From Halobacterium jilantaiense (GTDB taxonomy: Archaea > Halobacteriota > Halobacteria > Halobacteriales > Halobacteriaceae): DNA of 64,000 bases. The translations under genes and the position numbers were made by a program. Positions 56,025 through 59,080 of this stretch are shown one piece after another; the stretch's first letter is position 1, and every line of letters starts with the position of its first letter. Where the stretch lies: assembly GCF_900110535.1 (NCBI RefSeq), contig NZ_FOJA01000001.1:2081393-2145392 (forward strand), given 5' to 3'. The notes below the pieces were generated by a model. It was not told the DNA's origin, did no database searches, and saw nothing but the letters and a program-made list of their open reading frames with translations.

Positions 56025-56134
56025 TTCGGGTTCGTCGGAGCGACGCAGTATAAGCGTTGCCGGGGGTTCCGCGATTCGACACTCGTTTCGGTTCCGTAGA
56101 GATGAAACTCCACGATTTGTCGCTTCGCAGGAAG

Positions 56135-56206
56135 AGCCTAGGCCGGAATTTGAATCCGGGGTCTCGTCCTTACCAAGGACGCGCTTTACCGCTAAGCTAC
56201 CCAGGC
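56135..56206 (-). tRNA. tRNA-Thr (GGT anticodon)
   Basis: 72 nt on the minus strand. Acceptor GCCTGGG pairs with CCTAGGC, anticodon loop TTGGTAA between CGTCC/GGACG gives anticodon GGT, and the T-arm is CCGGA-TTCAAAT-TCCGG. No encoded CCA; the discriminator base is T. Confidence 0.93.
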
Positions 56207-58637: not shown

Positions 58638-58708
58638 GCGCTGGTGGTCTAGTGGTAGGACATGAGCTTCCCAAGCTCATAGCCCGGGTTCAATTCCCGG
58701 CCAGCGCA
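58638..58708 (+). tRNA. tRNA-Gly (CCC anticodon)
   Basis: 71 nt. Acceptor GCGCTGG pairs with CCAGCGC, D-arm GGTCTAGTGGTAGGACA, anticodon loop TTCCCAA between TGAGC and GCTCA gives CCC, T-arm CCGGG-TTCAATT-CCCGG; discriminator A, no encoded CCA. Two further copies of its 3' end follow downstream. Confidence 0.95.
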
Positions 58709-59035
58709 CTCCCCTGAAACTCGAACCGACCAGCGACGGCTGTGTCGCTGTTCGTTCGATTCGTCACGTGGCTTCGCGAGGGAATTGAGCCCTGCCAGTC
58801 GCGCGCAGCGAACACAGTGAGCGAGCACGTCTGGCTCTGGTTCAATTCCCGGCCAGCGCACTTCGCAATCTCACTTCGTTCGACAGCTCGTGCGCTGCCG
58901 ACGTCTCGTTCGCTCCGCTCACGAGATTTCCGGAAGACGCGTAGCGTCTTCCGACGTTCGCAGTCCTGCGGACTGCTCACTCCCGGCCAGCGCACTCCTC
59001 TGGAACTCGAACCGCCAGCGACGGCCGTGTCGCCG
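58709..59035 (+). repeat. Tandem copies of the tRNA-Gly 3' end with palindromic filler (372-bp gene-free stretch)
   Basis: The 24 nt 58687-58710 (tRNA 3' end plus CT) recur exactly at 58839-58862. The 56 nt 58695-58750 recur with about five differences at 58981-59035. The filler holds CGGAAGACGC-GTA-GCGTCTTCCG and GCAGTCC-TGC-GGACTGC hairpins and a TCTCG...CGAGA pair. No integrase or credible gene lies in 58709-59080; frames here encode peptides such as AGRELN from tRNA sequence. Confidence 0.85.
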
Positions 59036-59080
59036 AACGTGGACGCGGACGGACACTGCCTCGCGAGGGCTCGCGGCCGG

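Follow-up and report, generated by a model that had tools for sequence, protein, structure and literature searches.

What are the repeated tRNA ends behind the tRNA-Gly(CCC) gene of Halobacterium jilantaiense, and how did they come to lie there? Prokaryotic mobile DNA has a preference for landing at tRNA genes, and a sequence-only reading of this locus proposed either eroded attachment sites of integrated elements or insertions of a palindromic family. We analysed the locus within a window of 64,000 nucleotides from this species (genome G000), together with its counterparts in relatives and with other haloarchaeal tRNA genes. The repeats described by that reading are real: the 24-bp 3' end of the tRNA (GGTTCAATTCCCGGCCAGCGCACT, 58687–58710) recurs exactly at 58839–58862, at a spacing of 152, and the longer repeat (58695–58755) recurs at 58981–59040 with ~90% identity and a 1-nt indel, in two ungapped blocks, one of 34 nt with 94% identity at spacing 286 and one of 26 nt with 85% identity at spacing 285. 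The strong hairpins noted between the copies were confirmed as well, the RNA fold of 58769–58861 reaching −44.4 kcal/mol (z −3.2). Three features were absent from the earlier description: an inverted copy of the T-arm (58780–58791) in front of the second tail copy, an inverted copy of the acceptor end (58890–58899) in front of the third, and the presence of the same arrangement at other tRNAs. The locus is composed as follows.

58638–58708/9, + strand: tRNA-Gly(CCC), host gene of the array (ARAGORN; Rfam RF00005, 70.6 bits)
58687–58709, + strand: tail 1, the copied segment, made up of the T-loop, the T-stem 3' strand and the acceptor 3' strand (repeat comparison, unit boundaries)
58710–58779, + strand: A module of unit 1, with inner hairpin H near 58729–58755 (sequence; H occurs again after the last tail copy)
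58780–58791, + strand: antisense T-arm of unit 1 (GGGAATTGAGCC), which pairs with 58839–58850
58792–58838, + strand: B hairpin of unit 1, family CTGCCAGTCGCGCGCAGCG...GAGCACGTCTGGCTCT, a family present at many haloarchaeal tRNAs
58839–58861, + strand: tail copy 2, exact (repeat comparison)
58862–58889, + strand: A module of unit 2 (short-target type, E2), a segment also found in loci L008 and L017
58890–58899, + strand: antisense acceptor end of unit 2 (GTGCGCTGCC; sequence)
58900–58933, + strand: B palindrome of unit 2, with a TTTCCGG right end, missing in L005–L007 as a clean insertion
58932–58976, + strand: E3, two small hairpins within a tail copy, with TCCCGG on both sides (sequence, locus comparison)
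58981–58995, + strand: tail copy 3, partial (TCCCGGCCAGCGCAC; repeat comparison)
58996–59040, + strand: flank homologous to the start of the first A module (H copy; repeat comparison)
56134–56206, − strand: tRNA-Thr(GGT), an empty site that is occupied by a 131-bp unit in G003, a genome of the same genus; the flank aligns directly after the G003 tail copy

The locus exists in several versions among relatives. Genomes G006 and G010 have no unit behind tRNA-Gly(CCC), G007 and G005 have unit 2 only, G002, G009 and G011 have unit 1 with the E3 hairpins, and G000, G003 and G008 have unit 1, unit 2 and E3. The same triple repeat in all relatives, which the earlier reading had named as evidence against itself, was therefore not found, as the locus is empty or partly filled in some of them; no island was seen at this tRNA in the Halobacterium loci read. 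CCCGG flanks both unit 2 and E3, at the boundary between T-stem and acceptor. A likely order of events is that unit 1 entered, E3 entered its tail copy, and unit 2 entered in the lineage of G000, G003 and G008. The antisense acceptor end of unit 2 reads GTGCGCTGGCCG in L008 and GTGCGCCGACCG in L017, each fitting its own tRNA. The H segments behind the first and last tails are alike within a species, a sequence likeness that points to gene conversion or repeated duplication. In G011 (locus L006, 1644–1715), the acceptor stem and the anticodon stem of tRNA-Gly(CCC) are both different (GCGCCGTTGG...GGACGGCGCAC), and this tRNA is almost directly followed by the last tail copy.

Eleven tRNAs of G000 are followed by a copy of their own last 18 nt (at most 4 mismatches), ~83–134 bp away and in one case weak, and several of them by a second copy; no tRNA gene of this genome has an upstream or inverted copy of its own last 18 nt. 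As own-tail copies occur downstream at 11 tRNAs and never upstream or inverted, chance is excluded, and as the copies vary by tRNA and fit the local one, they are not a single dispersed repeat. Their common grammar is tRNA tail, A module, reverse complement of the tail, B hairpin and tail copy. We collected 257 such units at 183 of 322 sampled tRNA loci, covering 35 isoacceptors, in a sample weighted towards loci with units, which gives no estimate of their frequency. Across these 257 units, the copied tail spans tRNA positions 52/53 to 73, starting sharply at G52/G53 and ending at the discriminator, with tail identity of 0.90–1.00 inside the 5' boundary and at control level outside it. A short-target version uses only the last 13–15 nt of the tRNA. 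Including the tail, units have a median length of 128 bp, with the bulk at ~97–184 bp, and nearly all are without genes. A tRNA may be followed by 0 to 5 copies; behind tRNA-Ala(CGC) of Halorubrum sp. Atlit-26R (locus L245, 6042–6113), four near-exact tandem short-target units occupy the first 400 bp.

The hairpin is matched to the tRNA beside it. The antisense arm matches the tail at 8 or more of 11 positions in 231 of the 257 units, compared to 18 after shuffling, and where the T-loop varies, arm and tail covary. Strong covariation is also seen in the inner stem of the B hairpin, which pairs in one register only, being Watson–Crick in 72% of cells and in at most 22% when slid. The arm is separated from the inner stem by a 2x3 internal loop, which, judged by eye, is unlike the bulge-helix-bulge motif of the splicing endonuclease.

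These units are a haloarchaeal feature that is found beside tRNAs. The hairpin pattern GGATTYGANNC-(20–50)-GNTTCRAATCC was present in 74 of 81 haloarchaeal genomes, with up to 23 forward matches per genome, and in 0 of 312 other Halobacteriota; the backward control gave zero. In all of the first 22 pattern loci, a tRNA gene preceded the pattern on its 5' side at a distance of no more than ~460 bp, and most of these loci continued into a cognate tail copy. An interior-only pattern, which holds no tRNA sequence beyond GGTTCRA, was scanned against 84,980 species and yielded 97 matches in 92 stretches. Among the matches listed, all were haloarchaeal by title except one metagenome-assembled genome: L217, a hypersaline-metagenome contig labelled Bacteroidetes bacterium QS_9_68_14, which is probably a mis-binned haloarchaeal contig. 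A same-strand tRNA ends 46–505 bp upstream of 86 of the 97 matches, and the remaining 11 lie near contig starts or behind displaced tails. The fit to the tRNA is specific: 49 of 85 tails matched their own tRNA perfectly over 15–16 nt, compared to 0.27% when the tails of other tRNAs were used. The B family of unit 1 is common to many tRNAs in different genera. Of the two earlier readings, palindromic insertions came closer to the truth than eroded attachment sites, and the empty and partly filled versions of the locus support insertion. The units are not generic palindromes, since the interior-only matches all adjoin a tRNA tail, and units carry a matching tail and antisense.

A viral or plasmid source of the units was considered and rejected. 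The generic pattern matched 43 viral contigs, nearly all by chance or in tRNA clusters, although one (L133) carries a tRNA-linked unit of the same kind; it matched no phage record and three plasmid records, all haloarchaeal. Six high-GC viral contigs (L146, L151, L160, L162, L168 and L172) share a conserved hairpin whose ends resemble a T-arm, for example GGATTTGAACCGTGGACCTCTGG...CCAGAGGTCCACGGTTCAAATCC, and have no convincing tRNA gene at the hairpin.

Related species differ in which tRNAs carry units. In four Halobacterium genomes with near-complete tRNA sets, tail copies were detectable within the mismatch limit at 13 of 42, 21 of 42, 15 of 39 and 11 of 36 tRNAs, and these were different tRNAs in each genome; tRNA-Lys(CTT) of G009 counts as empty under this limit, yet holds a degenerate unit. 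At tRNA-Leu(TAA), where the flank directly adjoins the tRNA in G009, the two are parted in G010 by an insert of 111 bp at exactly this junction. Such comparisons are between species, with one genome per species, and at that level the sequences give good support to the mobility of the units. In 33 multi-unit arrays the copy nearest the tRNA was the better preserved one, against 6 in which it was the worse (P 1.4e-5); entry of new units beside the tRNA would give this order. Modules are also shared between tRNAs. In G020, an identical B module occurs at Arg-CCG, Lys-TTT and Leu-TAG, another at Pro-TGG and Ser-TGA, and a 77-nt A module is near-identical at Leu-TAG and Leu-GAG; the tail of each of these units agrees fully or almost fully with the local tRNA. 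Across different tRNAs, pairs of highly similar B modules were more frequent within genomes (2.15%) than between genomes (0.81%).

Could each tail copy be the attR of a lost integrative element? As in islands, the tRNA is intact and its 3' part is repeated distally, and islands do use these tRNAs. Two of them in G020 allow a direct comparison: a 55-kb island at tRNA-Arg(TCG) (contig 1, 1166560–1221313) and a 34-kb island at tRNA-Lys(CTT) (contig 1, 899237–933652), each with an integrase at one end, beside attR. Their att cores are 13–17 nt long and their ends have no antisense-tail hairpin. Both lie between the tRNA and a unit that is found beyond attR, and that unit was therefore resident before the island arrived; a Halorubrum locus has a similarly displaced unit, behind a longer tRNA repeat. 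The units are not att scars of these islands, from which they differ in att structure, hairpin and position. In the bulk of units, no element with an integrase lies between the tail copies, as inserts in the narrow range of ~97–184 bp are too short for one, and only one tail copy was found beyond 700 bp in 489 kb searched. The attachment-site reading is largely refuted, and we regard it as very improbable.

The main rival to a mobile cassette is a functional pre-tRNA trailer, which would be co-transcribed with the tRNA and whose hairpin or tail copy would act in 3' processing, folding or stability, for instance as a tRNA-like end for RNase Z. A trailer would fit the invariable position of the units behind a tRNA, as well as the stable folds: in addition to the z of −3.2 for unit 1, in the minimum-energy fold of a transcript of tRNA-Gly(CCC) plus unit 1 (z −5.2), the distal tail copy is the pairing partner of the tRNA 5' end. 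Mispairs in the outer arm are more often G.U than A.C (125 to 41), which could reflect selection on RNA, but in this arm the tRNA dictates the sequence of the tail strand, and a small number of family variants make up most of the data. The inner stem, however, is unbiased (G.U 44, A.C 38), so that there is no sign of selection on RNA there, and the units match no Rfam family, the tRNA alone having reached the gathering score at the window locus. The very patchy occurrence among congeneric species, the variable copy number per tRNA and the identical modules at unrelated tRNAs also speak against trailers, and we consider this explanation unlikely. Copying errors are a further alternative, in which the palindrome of the T-arm would prompt template switching during replication, as well as gene conversion, and direct and inverted copies of the tail would arise in place, without any element. 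The order of tail, antisense and tail is what a double template switch produces, the H segments evolve in concert within species, and longer arrays can be tandem duplications. Local copying cannot, however, yield A and B modules that are common to unrelated tRNAs and different genera, which makes this origin improbable.

On balance, we favour the reading that the units are gene-less, non-autonomous mini-cassettes that stack at haloarchaeal tRNA 3' ends, because of their cognate tails and antisense arms, the clean insertions, the turnover, the best copies near the tRNA and the identical B modules. Insertion would leave the tRNA intact, duplicate the tail, and shift older units and the original flank downstream. 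We infer that a trans-acting tyrosine recombinase working on the folded unit, either a resident integrase or one of the Xer type, is the most likely mover, since a folded asymmetric hairpin, a fixed anchor and ordered arrays resemble integron cassettes. The right arm of the hairpin it recognises would be the tRNA tail, and its recognition would be much like that of folded attC sites by integron integrases. The need to fold would preserve the antisense arm, and a matching tail would be required, since this segment turns into, or has to take the place of, the tRNA 3' end. Gene conversion among neighbouring copies may then homogenise tails and linkers. The weakest point of the cassette reading is that the antisense arm tracks each tRNA: ordinary target duplication fails to account for this, and gene conversion or correction directed by the hairpin, or selection for folding, would be needed too. 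Spread among tRNAs with different tails is also not normal for a site-specific recombinase, which counts against cassettes.

Generic matches to the tyrosine recombinase domain (PF00589) were found in all three genomes tested. Reverse transcriptase (PF00078) was found in 0 of 7 genomes, with positive controls, and Y1 transposase (PF01797) in neither G000 nor G003, which carry 10 and 24 units. Cas1 (PF01867) was found in one of seven genomes tested, unit-rich ones included, and this sole gene lies inside the 55-kb tRNA-Arg(TCG) island of G020. These three enzymes were rejected as required resident movers, as they are missing from unit-carrying genomes tested; an enzyme that came and went may have been the mover. 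An HNH endonuclease gene between tRNA-His and a distal tail in G009 was rejected as an autonomous form, being a separate gene family beside tRNA-His, and it gave no match at E 1e-8 in G000 or the unit-rich G020. This gene has zinc-ribbon-like motifs (L413, 1501–2340; L414–L440) and lies ~250 bp or less 3' of tRNA-His in 28 of 30 haloarchaeal loci of best homologues, with relatives adjoining tRNA-Gln(TTG) in L441 and L442.

How do the units compare to known systems? Like integron cassette arrays, they stand head-to-tail at a fixed anchor with the best copies near it, and their 2x3 loop and covarying inner stem recall the architecture of attC, an imperfect hairpin with an internal loop and a variable terminal stem. 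Unlike in integrons, nearly all units lack genes, a tRNA tail serves as the anchor, the right arm equals the target tRNA, and the recombinase matches are to generic PF00589; the text consulted from an IntegronFinder study, in which 47 genomes of archaeal halophiles were among those analysed, mentions no archaeal array (PMC7923331). The MITEs, PATEs and SMRs of Haloquadratum are likewise short, non-coding, often palindromic and patchy among strains, but have fixed ends and other targets, whereas unit arms follow the tRNA and occur only beside tails (PMC3119063). MITE-like constant terminal inverted repeats related to a transposon were not found in the units, whose arms follow the tRNA at each locus. 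REPINs, which are associated with the RAYT transposase, are also small palindromic non-autonomous repeats, but the arms of our units are tRNA tail, and the two genomes searched yielded no Y1 transposase. Archaeal elements of the SNJ2, pNOB8 and SSV types also use tRNA 3' ends and leave the tRNA whole, but they bring an integrase and cargo (PMC8371274), and the ends of the G020 islands are without an antisense hairpin. CRISPR arrays and casposons (Cas1) resemble the units in that a repeat is duplicated beside a fixed leader and distal copies decay, whereas the unit insert is a conserved module, not foreign sequence, and Cas1 is present in a single genome of the seven.

The units look like an undescribed kind of miniature mobile DNA. 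We found no description of them in the open-access literature, which makes their novelty provisional; related topics include archaeal tyrosine recombinases (PMC8371274) and tRNA fragments from islands (PMC9897764). Tentatively, the mini-cassettes may carry an antisense-tail address that is rewritten for each new tRNA, which would place one family on dozens of tRNAs in integron-like gene-less arrays. As rewriting per target is seen as a pattern among sequences, not as a mechanism, we keep the units within the known miniature non-autonomous mobile DNA at tRNA genes. If true, a haloarchaea-wide family that is confined to the 3' side of tRNA genes and adapts its arms to each of them would represent a novel mode of targeting, one that can be tested in genetically tractable haloarchaea. 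It would account for repeated tRNA tails that might readily be taken for island scars, and the arrays would be a natural record of insertions ordered in time.
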